DNA of 24,676 bases from positions 1 through 24,676 of IMG/VR virus record IMGVR_UViG_3300025312_001030; one strand, 5' to 3'. How positions within the stretch are numbered: the first letter of the stretch is position 1; each line of letters begins with the position of its first letter. Under the pieces are notes generated by a model that made no database searches, was not told where the DNA came from, and saw nothing but the letters and a program-made list of their open reading frames with translations. This document shows positions 5,310 to 24,676 of this stretch, piece after piece. The translations under genes and the position numbers were made by a program. Origin of the DNA: a virus.

Positions 5310-5312
5310 TTG

Positions 5313-5819
5313 TCACGCCTGCAGATACTCCGCGTCAATCAGTACGTCATACTGCAGCACCCACACCCATTCATCGTCGTCTTCTCTCGCGTGGAAGTCA
5401 GGTCCTCGCTTCACGATCACTATCTTGTCGTCTGTCATCTCCCAAGGTGCCGTATTTGGATCAAATGCCTCGGCTACCTCTTTCGCAAGTCTGATGCAGA
5501 TCGACTTGGCAGACTCGGCCGCAGTACTTTTGGCGTGAATCCGGAACGCCACGAGTATCTGCTGCAACTGGTCTTCCCGCTGCGCCGCAGTGTGGCCGCT
5601 CATGTGGGCCATCACGACCGGGATCGACTTTTCGTACACTACGTACGGGCCTGGAGGTGTAGGCCTCGCAAACCCGTCGTTCAACGCCTGGTACTTGTCA
5701 ATCAATCTGTCCGCTGCAGGCCACTCCAGCTTGATCGTCGTGTCCAGGCCGGCGTCGTCCCACCGCTGGTTGATGGCTCCGTCAAGCGTCCAGCTTCCTC
5801 TGGTGTTTGGGATAGCCAT
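5313..5819 (-). CDS. Tail-terminator-like protein, stand-alone copy (168 aa)
   Basis: Paralogue of the N-terminal domain of the preceding spike. Shared blocks in order are GSWTLD, RWDDAGLDT, PPGPYVVYEK, FRIHAKSTAAESAKSICIRLAKEVAEAFDP, RGPDFHA and VLIDA. The start ATG (MAIPNTRGSW) is chosen because it gives the same spacing to the first Trp as the paralogue; a GTG two codons upstream overlaps the previous stop and is an alternative. Length and fold pattern (helix near the start, central strands, long Ala-rich helix) suit neck or tail-terminator proteins that cap the tail tube. Having no linker or spike, it may be the true terminator, with the fused copy a spike anchor on the same ring. The next gene starts 3 bases after its stop. 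Confidence 0.75.
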   Translation of the reverse strand: MAIPNTRGSWTLDGAINQRWDDAGLDTTIKLEWPAADRLIDKYQALNDGFARPTPPGPYVVYEKSIPVVMAHMSGHTAAQREDQLQQILVAFRIHAKSTAAESAKSICIRLAKEVAEAFDPNTAPWEMTDDKIVIVKRGPDFHAREDDDEWVWVLQYDVLIDAEYLQA

Positions 5820-5821
5820 GG

Positions 5822-11019: not shown

Positions 11020-12618
11020 CTACACTTGCCCGTTGGCCGTATGGGCCACGTACATGCCAGTAGAAGGTGTTCCACCAATAGCAGGCTGTGCCAACTGGCC
11101 GCCGTACCTCGCACGTGCACACACGAGCATATGGTTGTTCCGTACGAGCGTCTGGCCCTCGGTAGTCGACTTGATCTGCAGCCCAAGCCTCTTGTACATG
11201 CGATAATGCGCAAAGTTGCAGAACACTGCCTGTGCATTACCAAAGTCACCCTGGATCAAAAATGGGTGGCCAAGAAGCGTGTAGGTCTCGACGTCGTTGC
11301 CAAACAGGAATCGATCGTCACCAGTGACGCCAGTGGCAATTTGCCGAATCCGGCGGTAAGTAGTCTCATTGGCGGCATAACAAATTCGGTTTCTGTCTCC
11401 TGTCCTGTACTCCTTGGGCACGCCAAACATCAGCTCCATCAGCTTGCCTGTCGTCCACGAACCTGCATCGACAGTGACATTCGTCGAGCCGCTGGCGTTG
11501 TACACGCCATCAGGCTCCGTCGTGCCGTTGCCAACCGCGATCACGCGGTCAAGGTCGTGCAGCAGCACTTCTCCGTAATTCCGTGTCAGCAAGTCGCCAA
11601 ATGCGATCGGCGTGTCAGACAGGAAGTCCAATCCAAGCAGGATCGCACTTTGCACGACATGGATGTTGGTGTCGAACGCTCCCACGAACGCAGTCGTCGT
11701 CACGAGTGGAACCTGCGTTGCCTCGGTATCCGCCCAAGTGATCGTAGGATTCGCGACGACCCCACCTTCAATCCGGCGTCCCCGAGGAATGTTCACCACC
11801 TCGACACGAGGATAAAGTTCTGAGTGGAGCAATGGCTGAGTTAAGATCGAGTCGTCGAATACGATTGGCACGATCTCCAAACCTTGGCTGGCGCCGCTCT
11901 CGTCTAGCACCTGCTTAACTTCCCACTCGGTGAGTCGACGGTTGTAGACATCCTTGCCGCCGTAAAGCTCGTCATCGCCGACCTCGCGGATGCAGCCGAT
12001 CCAATTCATGTTCCTCGCCGCATATTGGATCAACTCTTTGTCGTGATCAGTAATGATTGACTTCGGCATGATGCCTCTGGCAATGAGCGGTCCGAAGATC
12101 ATCATCTTCCCATAGGCCCCATTCACGGCACGATCCAACTCGCTCGGTTCATCAATGTATCGGCCAATATCCATGACTCGCTGGTTGGCCTTCGGGTGAC
12201 TTCGTCCGTTGGCTTCCTTGAGCGGAAACGTCAAAGCCGTCTTGGTCGTCGAGTACTGCTTGTCCGCCGTGATGTGGCGGATATTCGGCTCACCGCCAGT
12301 GACAGGGTCCGCACTCACGATCATGCTCGTCGTGACATTGCTTGTCGGTCTGGCCTTCTGATCCGCTGGCTTTGACAGCGTCGCAACTTGGTTGGCCATT
12401 GCCGCCATGGCATCCTGCATAGACGTCAACGTCTTGGTAAGTACACTGGCCTTGTCGGCGTCCGGGTCCTTGGTTAGCTCAGTGACCTGCTGAGGCGTGA
12501 TGCTACCGTCGCAAATCCCTTCTGCCACAGCTTTGGTGTAACTAGCATCATCTGCATCCTCAGCTACGCCCTTGTTTTGACGAAGCCAAGACTTCAAATT
12601 GTCGGTCAGTTTCAACAT
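11020..12618 (-). CDS. HK97-fold major capsid protein
   Basis: 532 residues directly after the protease, with AGGAG eight bases before the ATG. Residues 1-90 are helical and charged (SYTKAVAEGICDGSITPQQV, then a coiled-coil-like stretch to about 85), resembling a delta or scaffold domain that the protease would remove. The remaining part has HK97 capsid features: LDRVIAVGNGTTEPDGVYNASG (about 360-380) in the A-domain approach, and GHPFLIQGDFGNAQAVFCNF followed by ARARYGGQLAQPAIGG near the C-terminus. It forms the icosahedral shell. Position, length and motifs agree, and no internal break is seen. Cleavage near residue 90 is inference from family behaviour. Confidence 0.9.
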   Translation of the reverse strand: MLKLTDNLKSWLRQNKGVAEDADDASYTKAVAEGICDGSITPQQVTELTKDPDADKASVLTKTLTSMQDAMAAMANQVATLSKPADQKARPTSNVTTSMIVSADPVTGGEPNIRHITADKQYSTTKTALTFPLKEANGRSHPKANQRVMDIGRYIDEPSELDRAVNGAYGKMMIFGPLIARGIMPKSIITDHDKELIQYAARNMNWIGCIREVGDDELYGGKDVYNRRLTEWEVKQVLDESGASQGLEIVPIVFDDSILTQPLLHSELYPRVEVVNIPRGRRIEGGVVANPTITWADTEATQVPLVTTTAFVGAFDTNIHVVQSAILLGLDFLSDTPIAFGDLLTRNYGEVLLHDLDRVIAVGNGTTEPDGVYNASGSTNVTVDAGSWTTGKLMELMFGVPKEYRTGDRNRICYAANETTYRRIRQIATGVTGDDRFLFGNDVETYTLLGHPFLIQGDFGNAQAVFCNFAHYRMYKRLGLQIKSTTEGQTLVRNNHMLVCARARYGGQLAQPAIGGTPSTGMYVAHTANGQV

Positions 12619-12636: not shown

Positions 12637-15600
12637 TTACAAATCAATCGATCTTTCGAAGGCCCGGTACTCTTCCGCAGCGGCGTTGTACGCCGTGAGG
12701 TCGACCACCAAGTCCAACGTATGTTTAACGCGGGCCAGATCGTCTTGACTTGCACCAAGGACGAAGTTGACCACATCGGTTAGATCGGGTTGCTTAGCAG
12801 CAACCTCTTTCTTGATCACATCGGTAATGAGCGGCTCCATGTCGTCTACTGTCATGTGGACGTGGCCCATACAGACGCTCTTGCCTTCCGGCTCTTCCGC
12901 CGGCTTTGCCGATTCAATTACGCTCTGCACTTTGCTCGCGCATCGTTCACACAAAGCCTTGGCAGCTCTCGCCATTTCCATGCCAGAAAGCTCCTCCAAG
13001 TCAGCTCGCACTTCACCCAGCAGGTCCATGTTCTTCTGCGATATCACGCGGCCGGCTTTGATCCGCACAACGGCTGATTCGTGTTCCCCTGGGTATCCGA
13101 AACCGCACGTCTCATGCAGCCAATTGCAAAAGCCCTCTTTGCTCCCGATCTCCCCCTCGAACTCGCCGAAGTCGAATTCCATGCAGTTGCTGAAAAATCC
13201 AGGATCGCTACCAACTGCGTCACATAGCCCGGCAACCATCTCTGCACTCACAGCTTTGTCGAGCTTGACAGACTTGAACCCTTTGGCCCTGGCCCTCTTG
13301 GCACAGGCAGGACAAATCTTCTCCAATACTGACACAGCGATGTCCATTTTGGAATAGTCTCGCCGCATTCTTTGCTGCGACGACAGGCCTCTCACCAGAC
13401 GTCGCTGCTCAGAGACTTTTCCGTAGGCCTTCTCGAGCGCTTCATCGATCTGCATGTCGTCGTCGCGCCTCAGCACGTCCGCGAACGAACAGAGGTCCTT
13501 GATGTGGGCGCCGCTGAACCCAGCTGTCCGCTTCACCATGTCCTCAATGAGATTGTTGGATGCAGAGGCAGACCACACACGGAACATGTCCCGTCTGCAA
13601 TGCTCGTCCGGCAAGTCGAATTGCAGCACGTCGTGGAACCTGCCTGGCCTGTCGATCAAAGTCTCGGGAAGCATGGCTGGATAGTTCGTAGTGAGGAGCG
13701 TCAAAACACCGGTGCGTTTGTCGAGTCCATCAAGCTCCGTCTTCAGCAGATCGAAAGCATAATCACTGAAGAACGAATCAATGTCCTCGAAGCAGATAAT
13801 CGACGGCGCGAGCTCACCTGCAATCTTGAACGCCATGCTGATGCTCGAGGCGCCATACATATCCTTAGCACTGACCCAGATGAATGTAGCATCCGTGTTG
13901 TTAAGCAATGCCCTGGCCGAGAGTGTCTTGCCAGTGCCTGGAGGCCCAAGAAAGATCATGCCTCGGCTGGCGAATTGGGTTCCGCTGCTGGCCAACTTGA
14001 CAGCGCGTTTGAGTGCGATCTTGTTGCCGTCAACCAAAAAGATTTCGTCTAGCGACTGGCCTTTGCGTTCAATAAACCCGCCGCCCAGTCGGAATGCCTC
14101 GCCCTTGAGGTAATTGTTCTCGCGCACCCACTCCCAGCAATCCTCAAAGAACTTAACGCCGCGGTCGTCCACGTCGTAGCGTCTGATTTCCAATCCGTCG
14201 TGATATCTCTGCAAGTCGAGGCAACACTTATGATTGTCACAAGTCCAGAATTGAAAGCCATTCACAATGAAGGTGTCAGACTTCTTGGAGTTCAACTGCA
14301 CTGTTTCTCGTTTGATCGGCCAATCGTGGCCGTAGTCATCCAGGTTCCTCGTGTCGCGAAGATTGGCCGAGTCCATCGCTATCTTCATGGCAGACAGGAA
14401 GTTTCCCATCGCGAAATATGGCGCGAACGTGCTGGTAATGTACAAGTCCTTGACTTCGCACTCCAACCATTGCGATGCCCAGTCGTGCACTGGTACAGCT
14501 GCATATGCTCGCTGGTGCTCAGGGTGAAACTCCGACTGTATCTTCTTCATGTTGAACGGCTGCACATGCTTCGTCCTGATGTCGATACCTCGCACCTGCA
14601 CAGGCCGCTTGCTCGCGTAATGCTTGGCGTACGAGCGCACGACGTCTGACTCGAACTTGCCGCGGCTCCACAACTCCACCACAGCATCGGTATTGCTCGG
14701 CACGCTTACGCCAGAGACTTCAAGGCCCTCGGCTCTCTTGATCCGGAATGAGCCAGTCTCCGCGCCTTTCTCGTCCATCATGGCATCGTAGTCCAGGACG
14801 CGGAAACCATGGCTAAACCGCAGTGCGTCTGCCTCAAACAGCACTGCCGCATCATGTGTCAACTCGTTCATGTCCAGTAGTGCCGAGATCACCGTCAGCT
14901 TGTGTGCCGTGTGCTCCACCTCTCGCAGCACCTTGCCGATCGGCAGAAACGGCTGGTGCTGCCACAACAGCGGTGCCGCTGGGTCCAACTCGAACCCAGC
15001 AGTCTCCAGTACGTCGCCGTCTCGGTCCTGCTTGTCAGTCGTGACTACGTGGCGGAGCAGCATCAGCGTCTTGGGGGGAGGCTCAAGGCCAGAGACGCCG
15101 ATGCCGTCCAGCCGCCCTAAAAAAAGGTCTTTGGCTGTCGCGATACTCTCTAGGGTCATATGGGGCGTTGAACAACAGAGACGTGATTGAGCCTCCTTGA
15201 GAAGTGATTCAACGGAGCAAGTGCGGCCCGTCGAGCAACCAGACTCTTCCATTTGCAGCAAAGCACGGACGTATGGCTCTGCCGTCGTGATACCGTATCC
15301 AAAACGAGATATGGAATTGCGACGGCCCTTTATCCTGGCGACAAATGATTCGTGCATTGAAGCTTCAGGCCTTTGCTCCGATTGGTTGCGGTGCTCCCAT
15401 ATCTTCTGGCAAGCAGCCCGAGCTTCGCTTTCGTCCATGCCGTCCTGTTTGGCGACGCATCGATCGATAAACTCAGACTGGCTCTCTCCTTCGTTGACAT
15501 GCAATTCTTCTTTCCGGCTTGGAACCATGGCAGATCGTTCCTGATGGTGCTGCCACATCGTCTCGCAAGCAGACTGTGCCTCATCCTTGTCTTTGCCTTC

Positions 15601-15816
15601 GGACTCCATCTCCGATACACATCGCCCCATCCAGTCGGACTCAGATTCGTCGTCACCTGGCCCCATCGCATGAGCCTGCTTGCCGTGCTCTTCATACATT
15701 GAATTGCATATAGCCACGGCTTGGTCCTGGTCTTTTGCCGTACCTTCATCAAGCACCATCGGCACACACATGGCCACGAAGTCGTCTTGAGATTGACCTG
15801 GTTTTGGCTTCGGCAT
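12637..15816 (-). CDS. Prohead maturation protease with an inserted AAA ATPase domain (1059 aa)
   Basis: Domains in order: three Cys repeats (about 7-44, 57-91, 111-142; for example QSQDDFVAMCVPM and ESQSEFIDRCV, each ending C-x(3-4)-W/Y); a linker; an S78/U35-type prohead protease (247-385) with the likely catalytic His287 in LLWQHQP and Ser368 in GLEVSGVSVPSN; a Cys/His-containing region (421-600); a full classic AAA ATPase (600-800) with Walker A GPPGTGKT (624-631), Walker B IICFEDIDS, sensor-1 LLTTN, DRPGR arginine fingers (723, 726) and GFSGAHI sensor-2. A protease-tail region follows (895-970) with FCNWLHETCGFGYPGE and IKAGRVISQKN, a motif normally found after phage protease domains. 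Usual phage proteases are 200-400 residues, so the ATPase appears inserted between catalytic domain and scaffold-like tail. It cleaves scaffold and capsid N-termini; the ATPase role is unknown. The major capsid gene follows after 18 bases. Confidence 0.9.
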   Translation of the reverse strand: MPKPKPGQSQDDFVAMCVPMVLDEGTAKDQDQAVAICNSMYEEHGKQAHAMGPGDDESESDWMGRCVSEMESEGKDKDEAQSACETMWQHHQERSAMVPSRKEELHVNEGESQSEFIDRCVAKQDGMDESEARAACQKIWEHRNQSEQRPEASMHESFVARIKGRRNSISRFGYGITTAEPYVRALLQMEESGCSTGRTCSVESLLKEAQSRLCCSTPHMTLESIATAKDLFLGRLDGIGVSGLEPPPKTLMLLRHVVTTDKQDRDGDVLETAGFELDPAAPLLWQHQPFLPIGKVLREVEHTAHKLTVISALLDMNELTHDAAVLFEADALRFSHGFRVLDYDAMMDEKGAETGSFRIKRAEGLEVSGVSVPSNTDAVVELWSRGKFESDVVRSYAKHYASKRPVQVRGIDIRTKHVQPFNMKKIQSEFHPEHQRAYAAVPVHDWASQWLECEVKDLYITSTFAPYFAMGNFLSAMKIAMDSANLRDTRNLDDYGHDWPIKRETVQLNSKKSDTFIVNGFQFWTCDNHKCCLDLQRYHDGLEIRRYDVDDRGVKFFEDCWEWVRENNYLKGEAFRLGGGFIERKGQSLDEIFLVDGNKIALKRAVKLASSGTQFASRGMIFLGPPGTGKTLSARALLNNTDATFIWVSAKDMYGASSISMAFKIAGELAPSIICFEDIDSFFSDYAFDLLKTELDGLDKRTGVLTLLTTNYPAMLPETLIDRPGRFHDVLQFDLPDEHCRRDMFRVWSASASNNLIEDMVKRTAGFSGAHIKDLCSFADVLRRDDDMQIDEALEKAYGKVSEQRRLVRGLSSQQRMRRDYSKMDIAVSVLEKICPACAKRARAKGFKSVKLDKAVSAEMVAGLCDAVGSDPGFFSNCMEFDFGEFEGEIGSKEGFCNWLHETCGFGYPGEHESAVVRIKAGRVISQKNMDLLGEVRADLEELSGMEMARAAKALCERCASKVQSVIESAKPAEEPEGKSVCMGHVHMTVDDMEPLITDVIKKEVAAKQPDLTDVVNFVLGASQDDLARVKHTLDLVVDLTAYNAAAEEYRAFERSIDL

Positions 15817-16250: not shown

Positions 16251-17333
16251 TTAGTCGCTCTGAGTGCTTGAAGTCATCTCGGGCTGCGTACTGGACGATG
16301 TGCTGCTCGATGTCGTCAGCGATTCAACGGTAGACGAAGTCGATGAAGTAGATGAGGAGCTAGACGAACTCAGGGATTGCGAAGTCGTCTCTCCAGCAGT
16401 ACTGCTCGTCGTCATACCAGCCGTGCTAGTAGACGATGTCGAGGAAGACGACGACGAACTCGAAGACTGGCTACTCGATGAGGAAGAACTCTGCGAGGAA
16501 GAGGACGAAGATGAAGTCGAAGAGGAAGATGAAGAACTCTGCGATGATGAGCTGCTAGTTTCTCCTGCCACCGTGGATGACGTGGAGCTCGAAGATGATG
16601 AAGATGAAGACTGCGACGACGAGCTGCTAGTAACGCTGGCCACCGTACTCGAAGAGGAAGTTGAAGACGATGAAGAGGAAGAAGACGACACCGAAGAAGT
16701 CGAGGATGAGGAAGAAGACGATTTACTGCTCTGCGAACTGCTGCTCAGAGAACTTGTCGACGATGATGAGGTACTCGAGGACGAACTTTGCGAACTGGCT
16801 GAAGGCTCGGTTTCGCAGCTCTCGGAACTTGTCGATACGCTGCTACTCGTGGAAGACGAAGACGTGGAAGATGAAGACGAAGAAGACGGTGTGGATACTG
16901 ACGTAGACGATGTCGAAGTCGACGACGAACTCGAGAGGCTGCTCGACGAAGAAGATGAAAGCGACGAGCTGCTAGATTGTGATGTCTCGGCTGCGGCTGT
17001 CGAAGACGAGGATGTAGAACTGGACGCTGTTGAGCTTGTCGTCTCCTCGTCATACCAGAGCACACAGAGCCTGCCGGAGAAGACGTCGATCGCTGGCGCG
17101 ATGGTGTCAGTATGGCATCTGCTTACATACTGGTTCTGCCCAGCAACATCTGTTAGCGTCACGAGGATAGGAATGTTGTCTGGCAGACGAATTGCAAATT
17201 CAGTCGCAGATACACTTATTGCCTGGGACGTGATGAGGTCAAATGGCTCAGTCGTCTTGTTCCAGATGGCGATCGTTCTGGACGTCGTCGCGGCAGGGGC
17301 CTGCCTGATGCCGAAAGTCATCAGCGTCGCCAT
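16251..17333 (-). CDS. Serine-rich fibre-like protein with unknown 95-residue N-terminal domain
   Basis: The start is ATG 17333 (MATLMTFGIRQ); the longer frame from 17384 would begin inside the terminator hairpin and is rejected. Residues 1-95 form a beta-rich domain (TIAIWNKTTEPFDLI, ATEFAIRLPDNIPILVTLTD, SGRLCVLWYDEE) of unknown family, plausibly the virion anchor. Residues 98-360 are almost only Ser and Thr, with recurring STVAxxTSS and STAGxTTSS units, and end STQPEMTSSTQSD without a folded tip. That makes it an anchor plus a flexible polyserine arm, unlike the other two Ser-rich proteins, which carry folded domains at both ends. It could be a head fibre or a glycosylated surface brush. 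The next gene follows within 10 bases. Confidence 0.75.
   Translation of the reverse strand: MATLMTFGIRQAPAATTSRTIAIWNKTTEPFDLITSQAISVSATEFAIRLPDNIPILVTLTDVAGQNQYVSRCHTDTIAPAIDVFSGRLCVLWYDEETTSSTASSSTSSSSTAAAETSQSSSSSLSSSSSSSLSSSSSTSTSSTSVSTPSSSSSSSTSSSSTSSSVSTSSESCETEPSASSQSSSSSTSSSSTSSLSSSSQSSKSSSSSSSTSSVSSSSSSSSSTSSSSTVASVTSSSSSQSSSSSSSSSTSSTVAGETSSSSSQSSSSSSSTSSSSSSSQSSSSSSSQSSSSSSSSSTSSTSTAGMTTSSTAGETTSQSLSSSSSSSTSSTSSTVESLTTSSSTSSSTQPEMTSSTQSD
16254..17042 (-). repeat. Polyserine coding tract of the head-proximal Ser-rich protein
   Basis: About 790 bases encode Ser/Thr runs with spaced STVA and STAG motifs. The tract mixes TCG, TCT, TCA, AGT and AGC codons, so it is not a simple microsatellite. 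On the plus strand the same bases read as a long acidic open frame, which is an artefact. Confidence 0.85.
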
Positions 17334-17357
17334 ATGATTCTTCGCTCCGCACCAACG

Positions 17358-17410
17358 AAAAAGCCCCGCCTCAAAAGACGACATGGATATGTCATCTCGA
17401 GACGGGGCTA
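17358..17410 (-). terminator. Rho-independent terminator after the portal segment
   Basis: On the minus strand AGCCCCGTCTC (17409-17399) pairs with GAGGCGGGGCT (17372-17362), an 11-pair stem with one G-U pair, directly followed by a run of T (17362-17358). The loop contains a second small stem, GACAT/ATGTC. The opposite strand lacks a T run, so it acts in one direction. It lies between the RSAES copy A gene and the serine-rich fibre gene. Confidence 0.85.
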
Positions 17411-17481
17411 TTGGGACAATCGCCTTTTTACCCGCGTTCCTCTACTCTGCCATTCATTCTAGATTGCTTAGCCCGGCTCTG

Positions 17482-18054
17482 TCAACTGCTGGAACTGGAT
17501 TCCTCATCGTCATGCCGGCCCAGTACGAAGATATCCCAGTAGACAAAGTCGTCCACGGCCGACACACGCAACCGGTGGCTCACGCCGTCCTCGACGTCCA
17601 GAGCATCAGCCGCAGGCTGGTACAGACAGAGGATTCCCCCTGTTTTCAGGGCATTTCCGGCCGACTGTGTCAGGTGGGGGCACCACTCAACAGCCGCGGC
17701 CGGCACTGACGACAGCACCTCCAGCAACCCGCCGCCACTGGCATTCCGGATCGCAATCAGCACCACTTGCTCAAAAACGGCCGCCTGGCCCAGCAAGTCC
17801 TTCCCGAAGCCCAGACCCACGTTGACCGATTCCCAGTCGTGAAGATCGATCTCGTCCGTGTTGCCCGGGGCGATCTCCCGGTTGAGCGACACCATGGCCC
17901 GGTTCGCCTGGCTCGCGTCGATCCCATCAGCTATCAGCTCGCTCAGCAGCAACTTGACAGCCTTTATGGCGGCTGTCTCACCGGTATCCAACTCGTTGTA
18001 CAGACTGGACTTAAGGCTGAGCTGGAACCAGGATTCTGCAGACCGCGTGCCCAT
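17482..18054 (-). CDS. Stand-alone RSAES-domain virion protein (copy A) with truncated Ser tail
   Basis: The start MGTRSAES was chosen by alignment with the paralogues (MANRSAES at 5309, MSTRSAES at 137) over a longer frame, with GGAGGAA upstream. The 190-residue product shares landmark blocks with two fibre proteins here: ASQANRAM, DEIDLHDW then GKDLLGQ, GNALKTGG, DVEDGVSHRLRV and VLGRHDDE. The pattern resembles a widespread unnamed phage structural protein (NQAD, then DLDL, then PGG, then YDI near the C-terminus), recalled and not searched. The protein stops after exactly five serines, at the point where copy B runs into a 250-residue polyserine linker, so it may be an anchor that has lost its fibre, or the ancestral form. 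A terminator follows. Likely a virion surface or tail component; exact role unknown. Confidence 0.8.
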   Translation of the reverse strand: MGTRSAESWFQLSLKSSLYNELDTGETAAIKAVKLLLSELIADGIDASQANRAMVSLNREIAPGNTDEIDLHDWESVNVGLGFGKDLLGQAAVFEQVVLIAIRNASGGGLLEVLSSVPAAAVEWCPHLTQSAGNALKTGGILCLYQPAADALDVEDGVSHRLRVSAVDDFVYWDIFVLGRHDDEESSSSS

Positions 18055-18058
18055 ATCG

Positions 18059-18289
18059 TCAGAACTTCCTCCGCCACTGGAAGTAACTCTCCTTGACCAA
18101 GCCGCGCTCGATGCGCAAGTCAAGCACGCAGACGCCAGTCTCCCGATTGACCACCGCTTGTCGGAAGCACTGTTCCAGCTCAAGAATCGCCTCAGCGGCC
18201 TTGTCAAGGGTGGCTACCAACAGCACGACACATTCATCCGGAGGCGATTCCTTGATTTCAGGTTTGAAATACTCTGTCAAGCATGACAC
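18059..18289 (-). CDS. Hypothetical protein (76 aa), GTG start
   Basis: The open frame is longer, but the best start is GTG at 18289, five bases after AGGAAG and overlapping the end of the previous gene by 32 bases. The product (MSCLTEYFKPEIKESPPDE...) has an alpha/beta pattern: strand CVVLLVATLDK, helix AAEAILELEQCFRQAV, strand TGVCVLDLRIERG, strand VKESYFQWRRKF. That order resembles small phage ferredoxin-like folds, but no family is recognised. The stop precedes the next ATG by four bases. Confidence 0.6.
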   Translation of the reverse strand: MSCLTEYFKPEIKESPPDECVVLLVATLDKAAEAILELEQCFRQAVVNRETGVCVLDLRIERGLVKESYFQWRRKF

Positions 18290-18629
18290 GATAGCTTCCT
18301 GCTGCTGGCTGCTGCTTGGCAACTTGTCTCCGCATGTCGAATTCAAAGGTAGTCGGCTCCTTGTTCCCAATATTCAGCTTGTGCTCTTCGATCAGCCAGT
18401 AGGCTAGATCGCGGATGGCACACTGCTCGCTCTCGTCGTGCTGGTAGTGGTCCTGCAGATAACGATGGTGCAATTTTCTGGCAGTCAGCAGCAGTGCCGA
18501 TTGCCGCTCAGTCAGCATGAGCACGCCGCCAAGCCGCTTGTACCGCTGGTTCATAACCATTGCGATCCGCCGGACGTTCAGCTCGGCTACCATGCCCAGC
18601 ATATCTTGAGAGCTAGGCACCCGCGCCAC
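18258..18629 (-). CDS. Hypothetical helical protein (123 aa), GTG start
   Basis: The GTG at 18629 follows GGAGG at six bases, which decides the start. The product is almost entirely helical by composition: MLGMVAELNVRRIAMVMNQRY, then LTERQSALLLTARKLHHRYL, then CAIRDLAYWLIEEHKLNIG. It has a His-rich middle (HHRYLQDHYQHDE). There is no membrane segment or enzyme motif. It resembles small phage structural or packaging accessory proteins only in its position. Its end overlaps the next gene by 32 bases. Confidence 0.7.
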   Translation of the reverse strand: MARVPSSQDMLGMVAELNVRRIAMVMNQRYKRLGGVLMLTERQSALLLTARKLHHRYLQDHYQHDESEQCAIRDLAYWLIEEHKLNIGNKEPTTFEFDMRRQVAKQQPAAGSYRVMLDRVFQT

Positions 18630-18650
18630 TGGCCACCTCCGATAATGCGA

Positions 18651-18965
18651 TCATGGCCACCCCATTTCCTTCAATCGAGTTAAGCCTCTCGCAACTGCCG
18701 GAAATGTCACTCGTTTAGCAACCAGTATCTCTTCTTCACCATCGTTTGTCATGGCCCAGACCTGGAGATTCACGTTCTCATGTCCAACATCCTCGCACCA
18801 CAAAGTCCAGTCGCCGAAGTTTATTCCGCATTCCTCGAGGCAAAGATGCTCGTCGTCTGGTTCGCCGAACCCGTAACCAGCAAAGACAGCAGCCGCCTTC
18901 ATGATCAACCGATTACGGCCACGTTGACGCGAAAACCTGCGATCAATTTCGGATAGGATGCTCAT
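18651..18965 (-). CDS. Hypothetical protein (104 aa)
   Basis: ATG start 7 bases after the preceding stop, with GGAG very close to it. A basic N-terminal helix (DRRFSRQRGRNRLIMKAAAV) is followed by a beta-rich, Trp/Cys-containing core (CLEECGINFGDWTLWCEDVG, VNLQVWAMTNDG) and a C-terminal helix ending LTRLKEMGWP. Three cysteines lie close together (about 42-57), but without a recognisable zinc-knuckle pattern. No family is recognised. It is followed 21 bases later by the next gene, whose ribosome-binding site lies in the gap. Confidence 0.7.
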   Translation of the reverse strand: MSILSEIDRRFSRQRGRNRLIMKAAAVFAGYGFGEPDDEHLCLEECGINFGDWTLWCEDVGHENVNLQVWAMTNDGEEEILVAKRVTFPAVARGLTRLKEMGWP

Positions 18966-18972
18966 GGCTCCA

Positions 18973-19191
18973 CTACTGACTCACAATTCTAGCAGGCAAA
19001 TCCACTACACAAGCAATATGCACCAGTTCTCGTTCCAACTGAGTACGCATTCCACCTTCACTCTTGTGCTTCTTGTACTCTTCCAAGAATGTCGGCACGT
19101 GAATCATCACATCAACAAGAGCCTTCCTAGTCATCGCGAGGGTTTTGCCTTCACTGACTATCCGTGCCGTAACACCACAAGATTCTGTCAT
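18973..19191 (-). CDS. Hypothetical protein (72 aa)
   Basis: Start chosen at the ATG overlapping the sialidase stop (TGATG), eight bases after GGGAG; a TTG-initiated extension of five residues is less likely. The product (MTESCGVTARIVSEGKTLAM...) is basic and mostly helical, with a central helix DVMIHVPTFLEEYKKHKSE and a C-terminal helix LERELVHIACVVDLPARIV. No motif or family is recognised. It is followed within 10 bases by the next small gene. Confidence 0.65.
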   Translation of the reverse strand: MTESCGVTARIVSEGKTLAMTRKALVDVMIHVPTFLEEYKKHKSEGGMRTQLERELVHIACVVDLPARIVSQ

Positions 19192-20342
19192 CAATTCGGC
19201 TCCCAAATTGTGGCTGCTATGTACCGCTCAGAATCCCGGCTGTCATTCCAATAGTACGCACTCACGATCTTGCCATCCTGCCGCACAGCCGAGCGCGTGT
19301 ATCCCATGTCCGCACAGCCAGCACCCTGCCGGATTGGACACGGCTCGCTCCACGTCTTGCCTTCGTCAATGCTCACCTGATAAAGGATTCCGTACTTCAA
19401 GTCTCGTCCAGCAGTCTGGCTTCCCCTGATCGCACCACGCCAGCCGTAAACCAATATGAGTGTGCCATCCTGCAACTGCACAAGATCCGGTGGGTTCCCA
19501 GACCGCATTAGCCCCTTTACAGGCACGGAAATCATCTGCCACATCCGGCATTCATCATCGGACCGATACACCACGATCCCTGCCTCAAACGGATCGTCCT
19601 CGGTGCCATACTTGTGCTCGAAGTCTCGCTCCCGCCAGCGGACGGCACAGATCACTGAGCCATTCGGCAATCGCACAGCCGACGGCATAATCCCAAAGCA
19701 ATGCTTTGGCACTTCATCGATCCAAGAGACAAAGTTCCAATAGGCGCCATTCGTTGTTTCAATACAACATGGTTGCCCTTCCTGGCCATCCGATACCTTG
19801 GATGCCGACATGAAAGCTATGCAGCGATTGCAATTGTCCTCAAATGTCAAGTAACACGTGCGAGCAGCGTATCCACGGCCATCGAATTCATCGATCTCAA
19901 ATCCATAGGGCCCTGACCAGGAACGGCCTAAATCGTACGACATATTCCAATAAGATGGTCCGCGATTTATATCAAGCATTCTTGCTTTGAATAAACCATC
20001 GCGGAACCATCCCGGTGTATTGTATTTGGAAAAGCTATACTCACAATCATTTTCGGCTGCTTCGATGTCTCGCTGGTTTATCCCTCGCCTATCGTCTCGC
20101 AATTCAAGCTGGCCTGCCGGTTCCCAGCACTCCCAGATCTCTCCGCCATCTAGCGTCTCAGCCATCATCGGCGTTACTGGCGAGCGTCTGTCGATCGCAT
20201 GGAATCCGCCCTGTAAATCCATCGCCCCAGTCTCAAACCCAACCAGGATACTGCCGTCCCGCTGCCACAACCCATGGTTGGCTGGCCAGCCAGCAAAAAT
20301 GCCGGACTCGCAGTAGACTATCACGTGGCAATACTCTGTCAT
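19191..20342 (-). CDS. Sialidase-like (BNR/Asp-box) six-bladed propeller protein
   Basis: 383 residues with four Asp-box repeats (S/T-x-D-x-G-x-x-W): TLDGGEIW (63-70), SYDLGRSW (135-142), the degenerate SDDECRMW (261-268) and SIDEGKTW (324-331). This is the signature of the sialidase/neuraminidase propeller. The opening (FAGWPANHGLW, then ILVGFE) and ending (DMGYTRSAVRQDGK, then SERYIAATIWEP) match a family I recall as annotated exo-alpha-sialidase in Planctomycetota and related bacteria. There is no signal peptide, so export would have to be in the virion or by lysis. Whether the catalytic Arg triad, Asp and Tyr/Glu are kept cannot be decided without alignment; R331-type positions are not assigned. 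Substrate is unknown: sialic acid or another host-surface glycan. The start overlaps the preceding gene (ATGA) and the stop overlaps the next (TGATG), so it is an integral operon member rather than a stray insertion. Confidence 0.85.
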   Translation of the reverse strand: MTEYCHVIVYCESGIFAGWPANHGLWQRDGSILVGFETGAMDLQGGFHAIDRRSPVTPMMAETLDGGEIWECWEPAGQLELRDDRRGINQRDIEAAENDCEYSFSKYNTPGWFRDGLFKARMLDINRGPSYWNMSYDLGRSWSGPYGFEIDEFDGRGYAARTCYLTFEDNCNRCIAFMSASKVSDGQEGQPCCIETTNGAYWNFVSWIDEVPKHCFGIMPSAVRLPNGSVICAVRWRERDFEHKYGTEDDPFEAGIVVYRSDDECRMWQMISVPVKGLMRSGNPPDLVQLQDGTLILVYGWRGAIRGSQTAGRDLKYGILYQVSIDEGKTWSEPCPIRQGAGCADMGYTRSAVRQDGKIVSAYYWNDSRDSERYIAATIWEPN

Positions 20343-20479
20343 TGCTGCTGTATCCTATTCCATTCCGCCACTGCTTCCAGGACGTTGGCGTCAGCCATCA
20401 TACACTGCCGACACGCTAGGCAATCGTCCGGTACGGGGGATTCTTTCAGGGACCAGGCAGTCGGCTGCTTATCGGGCAC
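20339..20479 (-). CDS. Small Cys-containing peptide (46 aa), GTG start
   Basis: A short frame fills the 126-base space before the sialidase-like gene. It begins with GTG inside the end of the previous gene (11-base overlap), preceded by a weak GGGTAAG site, and ends in TGA overlapping the ATG of the next gene (ATGA). The product reads MPDKQPTAWSLKESPVPDD, then CLACRQC, and closes with a short helix EAVAEWNRIQQQ. The CxxCxxC cluster might bind metal. An alternative shorter form could start at the ATG ATG pair at 20402-20397. The evidence is the start/stop coupling on both sides; there is no homology. Confidence 0.45.
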   Translation of the reverse strand: MPDKQPTAWSLKESPVPDDCLACRQCMMADANVLEAVAEWNRIQQQ

Positions 20480-20684
20480 CTTGCTTACCCAGTGCAATGC
20501 GAATATCGTTATAGATTCTCCCTGCTTTCCGCCTGGCCACTTCTAGCGATATGTCCTCGTTGAATGCGATCTCTGCCAAGGCACCCAACGCCAGATCAAT
20601 TGCAGCGGCCTGTTTGCTGTTTTGCCTCTCGAGTTCCTTGATCTCAAGATCCTGCTCAGCTAAATCGTCTGTCAACCCGTACAT
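20469..20684 (-). CDS. Small coiled-coil protein (71 aa)
   Basis: Starts 3 bases after the previous stop, with GGGGTGA just upstream of the ATG. Residues 5-35 (DDLAEQDLEIKELERQNSKQ and onward) have heptad-like Leu/Ile spacing with strong charge alternation, predicting a short coiled coil. This is followed by a second helix containing EVARRKAGRIYNDIRIALG. It could be a small assembly or adaptor peptide, but no family is recognised. The gene sits between unknown small genes and the sialidase-like gene in the same operon. Confidence 0.7.
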   Translation of the reverse strand: MYGLTDDLAEQDLEIKELERQNSKQAAAIDLALGALAEIAFNEDISLEVARRKAGRIYNDIRIALGKQGAR

Positions 20685-20687
20685 ACT

Positions 20688-20903
20688 TCACCCCTTCTCC
20701 ATGTGCTCCAGCAAGCCAGTCAGCAGCCTTCGCTCCTCTGACTTATCAGTCAATGTAATCCAGCCAGAGGCCACCTGCTTTGCCAATTTTAGCGAATGCT
20801 TGTCGAATGGCTTCGGCTCCGGCGGCTTGTCCAATTCAGCAAGCTTCTGCCGGACCTGGTCAATCGATACGTTCGGTTCACCCCTCGGTGCCAGCACTGG
20901 CAT
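20688..20903 (-). CDS. Hypothetical protein (71 aa)
   Basis: The start is the ATG six bases after a near-perfect AGGAGG, so the short in-frame extension upstream is rejected. The product begins MPVLAPRGEPNVS and is charged and helical, with a proline-rich hinge (DKPPEPKPFDKH, about 26-37) separating two amphipathic helices. The second helix ends ERRLLTGLLEHMEKG. It is cytosolic by composition, and no motif or family is recognised. It overlaps the end of the preceding gene and is followed 3 bases later by another small gene, so it is clearly part of the same translation-coupled run. Confidence 0.7.
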   Translation of the reverse strand: MPVLAPRGEPNVSIDQVRQKLAELDKPPEPKPFDKHSLKLAKQVASGWITLTDKSEERRLLTGLLEHMEKG

Positions 20904-21087
20904 CTTGCACCTCCTCAATCGTTATCCTGTATCTCTTACCCCATTCCAAAAACCTATCGAGACTCTCGAAGTTGTTGTTTGAGAAGTCTAGCAACGTGTC
21001 GGCCATTACAGTCGGTTTCCTTCGTGTGTCGTGTTCATCAATCAGAATGAACATTCGCTGGAATGTGACGTAGGACGAGTCGGCCAT
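20878..21087 (-). CDS. Hypothetical protein (69 aa)
   Basis: The open frame extends further upstream, but the start chosen is the internal ATG (MADSSYVTF) because it follows AAGGA at seven bases and lies two bases after the previous stop. The product is acidic and probably mixed alpha/beta, with a hydrophobic N-terminal strand (VTFQRMFILI) and a central segment FESLDRFLEWGKRY. No signal peptide, membrane segment or motif is visible, and no family is recognised. Its end overlaps the next gene by 26 bases, consistent with a compact co-translated operon. Confidence 0.7.
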   Translation of the reverse strand: MADSSYVTFQRMFILIDEHDTRRKPTVMADTLLDFSNNNFESLDRFLEWGKRYRITIEEVQDASAGTEG

Positions 21088-21089
21088 GC

Positions 21090-21305
21090 TCAGTTCCTTT
21101 CGCTCGATACAGCGCACCTCGGGCAGAAGTCGCCTGCCATCGTCTCTACCCAACCCTCAAGCTTCGGCGGCGCCGGTATCTGGCCAGCACATGTGATCAC
21201 TACCGTTGTGCCGCAACCGTCGCAGATCGCACCGGCGATGCCTTCCAGAACGTCGACGTCTGGCATCTGCTTGCGTAGCTTTGAGAAACGATCGCTGAAT
21301 CCCAT
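21090..21305 (-). CDS. Small cysteine-rich, putative zinc-binding protein (71 aa)
   Basis: The protein has a CDGC pair (C28, C31), a single C39 and a CPRC pair (C61, C64), the arrangement of a zinc ribbon with about 29 residues between the knuckles. The sequence between includes KLEGW and a short hydrophobic strand (TTVVITCAG). It starts 3 bases after the stop of the preceding membrane peptide, with GGTGA close to the ATG, and its last codons carry the ribosome-binding site of the following gene. No known family is recognised. It is one of four tiny Cys-rich peptides in this window. A role in virion assembly, nucleic acid binding or host take-over cannot be separated from sequence. Confidence 0.7.
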   Translation of the reverse strand: MGFSDRFSKLRKQMPDVDVLEGIAGAICDGCGTTVVITCAGQIPAPPKLEGWVETMAGDFCPRCAVSSERN

Positions 21306-21308
21306 GGC

Positions 21309-21467
21309 TCACCAACCCCTCTCAATCAGCCACAGACAGAACTTGATGAACTGAACCCAGAGCCAAAGAATCGGCACAGCAAATATTCCAGTCGCAACCA
21401 ACTCCAGCATCACAAGCATCGACTGTTTGGCTTTGCCTCGACAGTTTCCATATAGGAAGTGCCCCAT
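21309..21467 (-). CDS. Small single-pass membrane protein (52 aa)
   Basis: A 52-residue frame starts 9 bases after the MuF stop, with a good ribosome-binding site (GAGGTGA) six bases before the ATG. It stops 3 bases before the next gene. The N-terminus is basic (GNCRGKAKQ), then residues 17-48 form one strongly hydrophobic segment rich in Leu, Val, Ile and Trp, ending in ERGW. That is an N-in or N-out single transmembrane peptide of the kind phages use as holins, spanin-like helpers or superinfection-exclusion peptides. No family is recognised and the head-gene context does not choose between these. It is supported by tight spacing on both sides and the ribosome-binding site rather than by homology. 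Confidence 0.65.
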   Translation of the reverse strand: MGHFLYGNCRGKAKQSMLVMLELVATGIFAVPILWLWVQFIKFCLWLIERGW

Positions 21468-21476
21468 CGGCTCACC

Positions 21477-22703
21477 TCACAGAATGCTGCTTATTACGGT
21501 ACATAAACAATTTATCCGGTTTTCTGCTGGCAGGTCTGGGTGACTTGGATACGGGATCAAAACGCCGTCCAAATCAAACATCCCGTCGTCGTTTGCCAAA
21601 GTGCCATGGAGAGCGGCATGCGATAACCTCGTAGTTGACCCGAGGGCCGACAACCACTCCTTGCGAATCTCGATCCCCGTATCTTCTGCCAACTCTTCAA
21701 TTCCAGCCGAGTGCCCACTATTGAGCATGGATCCAAGCTCGGTACGAGCCACTGCTGTTGCTCTTGCCTGGGTATACCGCCGCCCATGCTGCTCCACCAG
21801 CCGATTGGCTATGTCGCGGCTATTCAGTCCTTCTTCGATCGCGGCCTTCAGCGTTCGTTCGACGTCACGGCGAGTGCTCGGGGCAATGCCTTCACGCCAG
21901 TAATCCCGCTTGAATGTTTCGTCCAACGTCTCGAAGGCCTGCTCCACCATCCAATCCGGCATCCGCAGGCTAATGTGAAACTCATCCACGATGTCTGATA
22001 GCTCCGGCACGTCGAGATCATACTTGCCTACAAACTGCTCGGCCGTCGTCGGCTTTCGCCGAGTCTTTTTAGTCCGGTGTGGTTTGGTCCGCTTGATGTT
22101 CTTCGTCTCTTCTCGTTGTTGTGCCACTGCCTTGCCGAATGCAGCCAGCAGAGGCGCGGCCGCGGCCTCCATCAACTTGGTCGACTCTAGGTCCGCATCA
22201 AAGTTCTCGTCCAGTAACTTGGCGGCCTGTGCCTCGACGTGCTCTGGATCAGGAGTCCAATCCGAACCAAGGCCAGACACGATCCGCTCAACCGATCCCG
22301 CGAAGTAGTCGTCCAGAACGCCCTCCAAACTCTCAGCTATCTCCTCGTACTGCTTGATGCGGGATTCCTCGATCGCCTTACGAATCGCGCTTCGCACCTC
22401 GATTGACTTCTCTCCTTCCTCATCCTCCTCTTCCTCATCCGGCTCAGCTCTTATCCACTCCTCGCCTTCCTTCAATTCCGGCCCAGCATTCATGTCATGA
22501 TCGGCACTCGCCTTCTCGTATACGATCCCGTTGTCGCCTTTGTAGGGGTTCAGGTGCAACTCGTCACCGTAGCTGATCTCCGCCGGTATGCCGTTCGGGA
22601 AAGCGCGGCATATCGGCTTCTCGCTGGATTCATCGCCGTCTGGCTGCGCAACTCCAGCAAACTGCCGGCATCGCCTCTCGTAGCACTTTGGCGTTTGTAG
22701 CAT
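21477..22703 (-). CDS. MuF-like phage head morphogenesis protein
   Basis: This 408-residue protein follows the portal, the usual MuF position. The C-terminal third has the Phage_Mu_F pattern: QARATAVARTELGSMLNSG (about 310-330), then W, then RLSHAALHGT and a closing RINCLCTV. MuF/gp7-type proteins are minor capsid proteins, a few copies per virion, needed for head assembly or DNA ejection. Residues 7-62 form a separate small module with C7, C12 and C32 followed by AFPNGIPAEI and GDNGIVYE, a short cysteine module I recall from other phage minor proteins. A very acidic stretch (about 85-100) and a long helical region link the two. There is no C-terminal toxin extension; in this phage the metallopeptidase is on the portal instead. 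The start ATG is fixed by overlap with the portal stop. Confidence 0.9.
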   Translation of the reverse strand: MLQTPKCYERRCRQFAGVAQPDGDESSEKPICRAFPNGIPAEISYGDELHLNPYKGDNGIVYEKASADHDMNAGPELKEGEEWIRAEPDEEEEDEEGEKSIEVRSAIRKAIEESRIKQYEEIAESLEGVLDDYFAGSVERIVSGLGSDWTPDPEHVEAQAAKLLDENFDADLESTKLMEAAAAPLLAAFGKAVAQQREETKNIKRTKPHRTKKTRRKPTTAEQFVGKYDLDVPELSDIVDEFHISLRMPDWMVEQAFETLDETFKRDYWREGIAPSTRRDVERTLKAAIEEGLNSRDIANRLVEQHGRRYTQARATAVARTELGSMLNSGHSAGIEELAEDTGIEIRKEWLSALGSTTRLSHAALHGTLANDDGMFDLDGVLIPYPSHPDLPAENRINCLCTVISSIL

Positions 22704-24676
22704 CAGATCACCAACTCTTTCTTCTTTGGCTTCAAGACGCCTTCGTAAAAATCATGCAGTGGCTTTGGAAGTTGCCCTCTATATGACGGGTGCGTATACA
22801 CCGCAAAGCCCTCTGCGAACAGTTCCTCTTTGCTCGTAGAGGCATAGGAACTGGGGAAGTTCTTCTTGTTCTTCATGTCTCGGAATATCTTGACCATGTC
22901 GTTCTTGGCTTTCTCAGTCGTATGCCCATACCATACGTGGTGCCCAGCCTCATGAAGGTAGGTGCCAGTCATTCCGCTCGTCGCGCGAAAGCTTCCGAGC
23001 GTGACAGCGTCCTTCTCATTCATTGATGCTTCGTCGGCAGCCAGTGTTATCTTGCCTTTACTCCGCTCGTATGCCCCCGCGACGCCGCTCTTCTCCGTGA
23101 CGAATTCGGCCTTAACACTGGATAGATTCTGCATCTCGACTTCCGGAATCTCCATATTCTTGAGTTTGCTATAGCGGCTCTTGAGATTCTCAGTAGCTCC
23201 CGATAGTGTATTCACTACTGCGTCAGCTTTTTCTCTCTCGGCCGGCTTCGCATAACTGTCATGACCGCTGAGCTTCGCAACCCCGGAAGGAGCTGACCAT
23301 CCTCCTCCACTTCCACTCCCACCACCGCCTTCCGCGAATTGTCCGCCTTCTGGTGAGCCTGCTGGCTCATGGCTCGGGTTGCCTGGATGCTGCTTTTTGT
23401 ACTGCCATTCAAAGCTTGCCTCAACTGGCGACGGCAGCGACAATTGCCCTTGTGGCGGCTGCTGAAAGCGAATCACTGGTTTGCCAATGATCGCCACGGC
23501 GTCCTCTTCCGATATCCGCAAGTACCGCGTCAGCAACGCGATAGCCTGGTCGATGCCAATCAATCCATAGTTCACTTGCTGCAGCAAACTCAACACCCCG
23601 GTGAAGCCACCGACAAGCTGCGTGATGTTGCTCTGGTCGTCACGTTGATCAAGAGGAGCGAGCCCTAGCACAGCGGATCGTATCTCGTCCTGCGTCACAT
23701 CGCCGTTGCGACGTAGCGTGGCCCATGTCCGCAACAGTTGATCTGGGTCCTCTGTTATCGCTTGCTCGAGGTACACCAGCAGCCGCTTCGGTGTCTCATA
23801 TCGCGGCCCGAGGAAGTCCGTCGCCATCTCGCTTACCGATCCTCCGATCGGGTTCACGACTTGCGTGTTGAACGTCTGCTCGGCAACGACGGCCTGGGCT
23901 TTGTTCACGCCGGTGACCTCGCCAACCACGTATGGATTGACACGATATGTCTGAAAGATTCGCTTCTTGACAATCTCGCCAGACGCCGGCCAGTCCATCT
24001 CTTGGGGCGTCAGGTGCAACTTGTGGACAGACTCGATTAAGGAATCCAGGATCACTGGATCGCCTATGTTGACTGTCTGGCTCAGGACCTCCCGAATGGC
24101 ACGGATGAACTGCCGCCTCTGAGCACCAGTCAATTGTGGCCGTTTTCCAGTGCCAGGATCAGCACCCACTGTCACGATCAGATTCGGGTGGATCCCTCGC
24201 TGAAAAGTCTGGTCCTGCGAACCCTGGATATACCGATCAATTCGCACGGCAGAGAAGCAAGCCACAAGTGGGCTGTACCAACTGCCAGGGTCGGACGGAT
24301 TAGGAAAGTACGCCTGCGTGACGAACTCAGCCGGCACGTCCACGCCTTCGACATCCGACCGCGGCTTGAACTTGTACAGCTTCTGGTCCGACTTGTACTC
24401 CATCCAATGTACCGGAACGGCATAGATGGCCTCCTCGTCGCTGTCGTCGTCTTTGCCGACGATCCAGTAAACTTTGCCGGCGATCTCAAGGTTAGCCACA
24501 GTAAAGTACAGGAATTCGTACTTGTGTTGCAGACTGTTCGGCCGAGCCAGCAGATCTAATACCGGGTGCGAAGCAATCGACTTGATCTCCTGCGAGGAGT
24601 TCGCCTTCTGCTGAACACGCGCAGGGATCTTCTGAAGTCGACGATTGAATGATCGCTCAGGATTCTCTCCGGCGTT
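22703..24676 (-). CDS. Phage portal protein with C-terminal zinc-metallopeptidase domain (5' end outside window)
   Basis: The frame is open through the window edge, so the true start is missing; a GTG at 24499 is internal, because the 59 codons before it read as portal sequence (HPVLDLLARPN, then QHKYEFLYFTVANLEIAGKVYW, the usual portal N-terminal signature). Counting from that GTG, residues 1-350 are an HK97/SPP1-like portal, the dodecameric DNA channel at the head vertex. Residues 371-391 hold NPSHEPAGSPEGGQFAEGG, a linker motif I recall from phage minor head proteins, then a Gly/Ser stretch. Residues 420-598 hold HEAGHH (516-521) and EELFAEGFAVY (558-568), a gluzincin-type HExxH zinc site with a downstream Glu as likely third ligand. 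The peptidase may process virion proteins or act as a delivered effector; that is inference. The stop overlaps the next start as TGATG, implying translational coupling. Confidence 0.9.
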   Translation of the reverse strand, partial: NAGENPERSFNRRLQKIPARVQQKANSSQEIKSIASHPVLDLLARPNSLQHKYEFLYFTVANLEIAGKVYWIVGKDDDSDEEAIYAVPVHWMEYKSDQKLYKFKPRSDVEGVDVPAEFVTQAYFPNPSDPGSWYSPLVACFSAVRIDRYIQGSQDQTFQRGIHPNLIVTVGADPGTGKRPQLTGAQRRQFIRAIREVLSQTVNIGDPVILDSLIESVHKLHLTPQEMDWPASGEIVKKRIFQTYRVNPYVVGEVTGVNKAQAVVAEQTFNTQVVNPIGGSVSEMATDFLGPRYETPKRLLVYLEQAITEDPDQLLRTWATLRRNGDVTQDEIRSAVLGLAPLDQRDDQSNITQLVGGFTGVLSLLQQVNYGLIGIDQAIALLTRYLRISEEDAVAIIGKPVIRFQQPPQGQLSLPSPVEASFEWQYKKQHPGNPSHEPAGSPEGGQFAEGGGGSGSGGGWSAPSGVAKLSGHDSYAKPAEREKADAVVNTLSGATENLKSRYSKLKNMEIPEVEMQNLSSVKAEFVTEKSGVAGAYERSKGKITLAADEASMNEKDAVTLGSFRATSGMTGTYLHEAGHHVWYGHTTEKAKNDMVKIFRDMKNKKNFPSSYASTSKEELFAEGFAVYTHPSYRGQLPKPLHDFYEGVLKPKKKELVI

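Follow-up and report, generated by a model that had tools for sequence, protein, structure and literature searches.

A stand-alone sialidase-like propeller of a bacterial protein family, encoded among the head genes of a phage

Propellers of the sialidase-like fold also occur in phage tail-fibre and tailspike proteins—for example, those of Serratia phage Parlo and Bacillus phage G—and the "endosialidase" of phage pf16 is tail-associated (PMC5587285). The protein described here, P0001, has this fold in common with the Parlo and phage G propellers, which are, however, domains of large tail proteins with 8-14% identity to it, whereas P0001 stands alone and belongs to a cellular family. With the GH33 sialidases, such as the Micromonospora viridifaciens enzyme (1eur) and Porphyromonas gingivalis PG_0352, it shares the Asp-box propeller and the catalytic Asp, the Tyr and the second triad Arg at the same ungapped spacing, but the first triad Arg and the Tyr-activating Glu are absent and the third Arg is out of register. 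Dfer_1899, an uncharacterised protein of Dyadobacter fermentans (PDB 5hx0), carries the same C-terminal signature (YGYR...GIRAR...DLGYP...YYFN), although it is only 16% identical and reads AAFPS in place of WPANHG. Rhizobial proteins annotated as "sialidase family protein" belong to the same family as P0001 (30-38% identity over the full length, mostly without a signal peptide); unlike P0001, several of them are encoded on megaplasmids in the context of sugar uptake, and they retain both a SADEH motif and D163.

The gene and its predicted fold

The window we analysed is an IMG/VR virus record in its full length, 24,676 bases. A first-pass annotation had reported an Asp-box gene at 19191-20342, and this observation is confirmed: the sialidase-like gene is a real coding gene on the minus strand, running from 20342 down to 19191 and specifying 383 residues, while the plus-strand frame over the same interval is interrupted by several stops.

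19191-20342, minus strand: sialidase-like propeller gene, 383 aa (WPAN-motif, Dfer_1899-like), identified from the ORF, its translation, BNR_2, cellular homologues, AlphaFold2 and Foldseek
20339-20497, minus strand: small upstream ORF, 52 aa from a TTG start, with the Cys motif CLACRQC and an ATGA overlap; no Pfam match
18973-19193, minus strand: small downstream ORF (MTESCGVTARIV...) with a TGATG overlap; no Pfam or PHROG match

The coupling proposed on both sides can be read directly at the two junctions. Upstream (CAGCAATGACAGAG), the TGA stop of the 52-aa ORF overlaps the ATG of the sialidase-like gene as ATGA, and downstream (GAATTGATGACAGAATC), the stop of the sialidase-like gene overlaps the next ATG as TGATG. 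Both of the motifs first noticed in the protein, FAGWPANHG (residues 16-24) and GYTRSAVRQDGK (347-358), are present, as are Asp-box-like segments at 63-70 (TLDGGEIW), 135-142 (SYDLGRSW), 261-268 (SDDECRMW) and 324-331 (SIDEGKTW). The reported lack of a signal peptide also holds: the N-terminus forms a propeller strand in the model, and the WPA motif already starts 18 residues in.

P0001 is not a chance ORF, given its match to Pfam BNR_2 (1.4e-6; 28.3 bits, below the curated cut-off of 31.4), full-length tblastn matches on Rhizobiaceae (Ensifer) plasmids (4e-51, 99% of the length) and confident fold matches. AlphaFold2, run with a 55-sequence alignment, returned a confident propeller (pLDDT 86.6, pTM 0.89) forming a single domain. 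Among solved structures, the best Foldseek match was 5hx0 (2.5e-16, TM 0.65-0.69), which also came first when PDB sequences were searched with a profile (3.3e-25). Next by Foldseek were GH33 sialidases, from ~1e-11; the predicted model thus has the Asp-box propeller fold of GH33. Most matches in the viral structure library belonged to large proteins of the tail or surface, in which they form a domain (8-14% identity). No PHROG matched P0001, and no virion-attachment or trimerisation region is fused to its propeller.

Active-site positions and the cellular family

We placed the GH33 landmarks against 1eur, whose catalytic residues we take to be R68, D92, E260, R276, R342 and Y370; the structure 1w8n, with Gly for the catalytic Asp, marks that residue. 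Columns were counted over 55 aligned members, 51 of them cellular. GH33 reference genes came from Bacteroidota and Actinomycetota; the BNR_2 proteins of one Tautonia genome had proved unsuitable as references and were replaced.

20190-20192, minus strand: codon of D51, at the GH33 catalytic Asp (acid/base) position; as far from the first Asp-box, without gaps, as D92 is in 1eur
19299-19301, minus strand: codon of Y348, at the catalytic Tyr nucleophile position; aligns without gaps to the region around Y370 in 1eur, and likewise by hhalign
19638-19640, minus strand: codon of R235, at the second triad Arg position; aligns without gaps to the region around R276 in 1eur, and likewise by hhalign
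19686-19688, minus strand: codon of M219, at the Tyr-activating Glu position; ungapped spacing to R235

Part of the GH33 active site is strongly conserved—Y348 is invariant (55/55 aligned members), R235 and R302 are each invariant among cellular members (51/51) and D51 is conserved in 47 of these 51. The Tyr-activating Glu (E260 of 1eur) is instead missing, with Met at this position in 50/51 cellular members, and the first triad Arg (the RIP arginine, R68) falls on G18 of the WPAN motif, a Gly in 50 of the 51. The triad of P0001 is therefore incomplete: Arg2 is kept as R235, Arg1 is G18 and R342 has no exact counterpart in register, a role in which R302 may serve. A comparison with the GH33 profile (hhalign, 98% probability) paired the Asp, Arg2 and Tyr regions as the ungapped spacing does; it opened a gap at M219-P220, so the equivalence of M219 with E260 rests on the ungapped motif. 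Y363-Y364 are also kept. Of 97 columns with 90% or higher conservation among cellular members, P0001 is changed at 20, including R15I, W28R, E31S, R62E and D163C.

Because the Glu and the first Arg are missing in nearly all cellular members, their absence is a property of the family and not of decay in the phage. With two of the six defining GH33 residues gone, P0001 is not a canonical sialidase and should not be filed under GH33, an identity that we dropped once these two residues had been tested. The original description of the protein as sialidase-like is sound for the fold, Asp, Tyr and Arg2, but with two residues absent family-wide an identity as a sialidase is not established; nor is the active site wholly lost, with D51, Y348 and R235 in place.

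By homology, P0001 is a member of a large, uncharacterised bacterial family. A single search of 84,980 genomes with an alignment of rhizobial homologues yielded 235 relatives, of which the best 80 were kept; these 80 include Acidobacteriota, Planctomycetota, Latescibacterota, Poribacteria, Chloroflexota, Paenibacillaceae and others (best 9e-70), and full-length bacterial relatives are 30-43% identical to P0001, ~43% being the maximum. Full-length homology together with the invariant columns WPA, H48, R235, R302, D345, GY and YY places P0001 among the WPAN-motif "sialidase family proteins", for which we found no characterised member and a literature search returned no paper. Outside Acidobacteriota and Planctomycetota, relatives mostly lack a signal peptide: short N-termini without one were found in Latescibacterota (8/8), Chloroflexota (11/11), Poribacteria (18/23), rhizobia (5/6) and the viral rows (9/9). 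In rhizobia and Devosia, the bacterial genes neighbour sugar ABC transporter genes or SemiSWEET; other neighbours, named from reading their sequences by eye, are presumably sulfatases, Gfo/Idh/MocA-type oxidoreductases, epimerase/isomerase-like proteins and Zn-dehydrogenase proteins.

Genomic setting, viral homologues and origin

Read from right to left, the order of genes is portal, MuF-like, six small ORFs, the sialidase-like gene, four ORFs, a poly-Ser gene, a 140-aa ORF, protease-AAA and capsid.

22703-24676, minus strand: portal protein gene, upstream of the sialidase-like gene (Pfam/PHROG scans)
21477-22703, minus strand: MuF-like head morphogenesis gene, flanking (Phage_Mu_F 2.6e-11, phrog_2468 1e-26)
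16251-21467, minus strand: accessory block of mostly small genes holding the sialidase-like gene (ORFs, scans, comparison with loci L139 and L140)
12637-15816, minus strand: S78-like prohead protease fused to an AAA ATPase domain, flanking (Pfam/PHROG scans)
11020-12618: major capsid protein gene, downstream (Pfam/PHROG scans)

The accessory block spans about 5 kb between the MuF-type and prohead-protease genes, and those small ORFs around the sialidase-like gene that were scanned gave no convincing Pfam or PHROG match and no recognisable head function. Two prophage-like loci of planctomycetes, L139 and L140, have their homologues of portal, protease and capsid close-packed with no block of ~5 kb between portal and protease, so the sialidase-like gene appears to sit within an accessory insertion, which probably shares its transcription with the head genes; in a third such locus (L138), the portal lies on the opposite side of the capsid. 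The first-pass placement of the gene inside the head-gene operon is borne out by position, with portal and MuF upstream and protease and capsid downstream, but not by the adjoining ORFs scanned.

Several other features of the window are of separate note. The 1059-aa ORF at 12637-15816 joins its S78-like protease (residues 281-383) and AAA domain (620-734) in an unusual fusion beside the capsid gene, and the C-terminal part of the portal protein (~residues 521-633) has weak matches to zinc metallopeptidases (PF15887, 7.5e-5; PF07737, 0.0015). A domain of ~180 aa occurs in three copies with 38-41% identity, all on the minus strand—alone upstream of the poly-Ser gene (17482-18054), at the start of a 1046-aa protein (4761-5309) and at the end of a 672-aa protein (162-707)—and is possibly a virion surface domain. 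The poly-Ser gene itself (16251-17384, minus) encodes a 377-aa protein that is largely poly-Ser/Thr past ~residue 115. A 170-aa protein (5313-5825, minus) is 45% identical to the N-terminus of the adjacent 734-aa protein (5822-8026, minus), a tandem duplication, and a 71-aa ORF within the small-gene block (21090-21305, minus) has two CxxC pairs (CDGC, CPRC) and is zinc-ribbon-like.

Among 50,697 named phages, tblastn with P0001 found no homologue at E 0.01; when the threshold was relaxed to E 10, the matches were all weak (E 0.3-0.5) and fell on tail proteins or proteins without a name. With the homologue from L093 as query there was no match, and a T4-like homologue gave one, covering 22%. 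Together with the many bacterial homologues, this agrees with the initial view that the protein resembles a cellular family and not the known phage endosialidases. Scans of viral contigs recovered the gene or relatives of it from L002 (the same phage), L091 and L092 (T4-like), L093, L095, L096, L097 and L098, along with a decayed 5' fragment in L094 (9986-10216) inside a phage tRNA-gene cluster, making it rare in phages at the sensitivity used (about nine records in 2.9 million contigs). In L091, the gene (4601-5803) follows clamp, clamp loader subunits, RegA, dUTPase and two unknowns and precedes DNA polymerase, which also comes directly after the gene (2775-3935) in L092. The copy in L096 lies near a collagen-like fibre gene and MptE-like, methyltransferase and glycosyltransferase matches, these last three weak.

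The contig from the same phage, L002, is identical to the window over ~5 kb (one mismatch) up to nucleotide 716 of the gene, past which it is ~21% divergent, with 49 mismatches and no indels in the last 232 bases.

19394-19626, minus strand (L002 10717-10949): 3' part of the gene where L002 switches to a divergent allele (nucleotide comparison)

Either L002 has recombined with a diverged allele or the assembly has joined two strains at this point; a search for the continuation of the divergent allele matched only L002's own contig. The mismatches fall mostly at third codon positions (33 third, 9 first, 7 second; chi-square p 2.7e-6) and the estimated dN/dS for the pair is 0.12, so in either case the divergent allele evolved under protein constraint. 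Four contigs (L099, L100, L118 and L119) have one of their ends in the interval 17502-21030, pointing to variation among strains in this region. Two of these, L118 and L119, come from different samples and both start exactly at 17502, suggesting an assembly branch point between strains.

Phylogenetic analysis did not bear out a donor among the Planctomycetota, the group whose homologues had been proposed for comparison. A 95-row tree set the viral rows on one side of a branch, with long stems and a program warning of long branches meeting. In a 48-row mixture-model tree, the position of P0001, whose end branch measures 1.93, was not resolved among Acidobacteriota, Planctomycetota and the T4-like pair, though it lay outside a group of Chloroflexota, Poribacteria and rhizobia (support 100/100). 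Given this position and the very long phage branch (1.4-1.9 changes per column), we do not accept a planctomycete donor; in both identity and tree path, the cellular sequences closest to P0001 come from Acidobacteriota (Bryobacterales, 43%). The comparisons support either an old acquisition from a bacterial donor or acquisition from an unsampled lineage. Capsid matches occurred in 5/294 planctomycete genomes (best 4e-19), 0/297 acidobacteria and 31/299 Bacillota (weaker, best 5e-10), a weak and not decisive hint of a planctomycete-type host.

Candidate functions

We give about even chances to the reading that P0001 is a putative intracellular auxiliary glycan-processing enzyme. As a soluble, presumably cytoplasmic, single-domain propeller of the sialidase superfamily, it would exert a glycosidase-type or related glycan-processing activity on host carbohydrate inside the infected cell, the substrate probably being a saccharide that lies within the cell or faces the cytosol rather than a sialoside. 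The phage would profit from a reshaped glycan or sugar metabolism of its host, surface-glycan precursors being one example, and the gene would be auxiliary cargo of the accessory block as opposed to one for a structural protein. Such a role is suggested by full-length relatives in many bacterial phyla, which, Acidobacteriota and Planctomycetota aside, mostly lack a signal peptide; by sugar-related gene neighbours in bacteria; by the retained active-site core (D51, R235, R302, Y348 and Y363-Y364); and by the T4-like replication-cassette loci and the position in L096 beside methyltransferase- and glycosyltransferase-like genes (weak scores). The gathering of allele differences at third codon positions also counts in its favour. 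Against it stand the 20 of 97 conserved columns changed in P0001 and the putative virion surface proteins ~1.1 kb downstream, and since the equivalents of Glu260 and Arg68 are missing family-wide, the chemistry could differ or be absent.

The first-pass annotation had raised recruitment as a virion enzyme, which we now consider unlikely. P0001 would then decorate the head or neck and trim host surface or extracellular glycans on contact, as might be expected of a translationally coupled gene in a head-gene operon whose block also holds the poly-Ser protein and a domain copy (17482-18054) with ~40% identity to parts of putative tail/virion proteins (2169-5309 and 150-2168), with those surface proteins so near downstream. 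The single propeller has no virion-binding or trimerisation region, however, the T4-like homologues are located in a replication cassette and the phage propellers that match its fold are mostly parts of large tail proteins.

We are similarly doubtful of a non-catalytic propeller, lectin-like or regulatory, in which the sialidase pocket binds a sugar. The family-wide loss of the GH33 Glu and Arg1 and the altered conserved columns of P0001 are what such a protein might show, but Asp, Tyr and Arg2 at exact spacing and the sugar-related cellular neighbourhoods favour catalysis.

A host-derived GH33 exo-alpha-sialidase, cleaving sialic or related nonulosonic acids, is very improbable: the Foldseek and profile matches to GH33 and the retained Asp, Tyr and Arg2 are countered by Gly18 at Arg1, an uncertain Arg3 and Met219 for the Glu in nearly all 55 aligned members. 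Transient cargo, acquired without benefit to the phage and now decaying, would fit the rarity of the gene and the decayed L094 fragment in the tRNA cluster of another phage, but we hardly credit it in view of the full-length open frame, the divergent allele's codon-position bias against amino-acid change and the long branches that imply long persistence.

Returning to the intracellular glycan-processing enzyme, we offer one broader and decidedly tentative proposal: that a sialidase-fold family with altered residues (Asp, Tyr and Arg retained, Met-Pro in place of Glu and the WPAN loop in place of the first Arg) runs an undescribed intracellular glycan reaction, and that phages of unrelated types have retained it as a means of redirecting the host's sugar or surface-glycan metabolism while they infect. 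Phage "sialidases" are usually taken to be tailspike depolymerases, whereas P0001 is stand-alone and apparently cytoplasmic. Phages of several unrelated kinds carry such a protein, in one case within a head operon and in two within the replication cassette of a T4-like phage. This makes it a candidate for manipulating host glycans from within the cell, and it directs attention to a large, uncharacterised bacterial family and to its recurring phage-borne branch.
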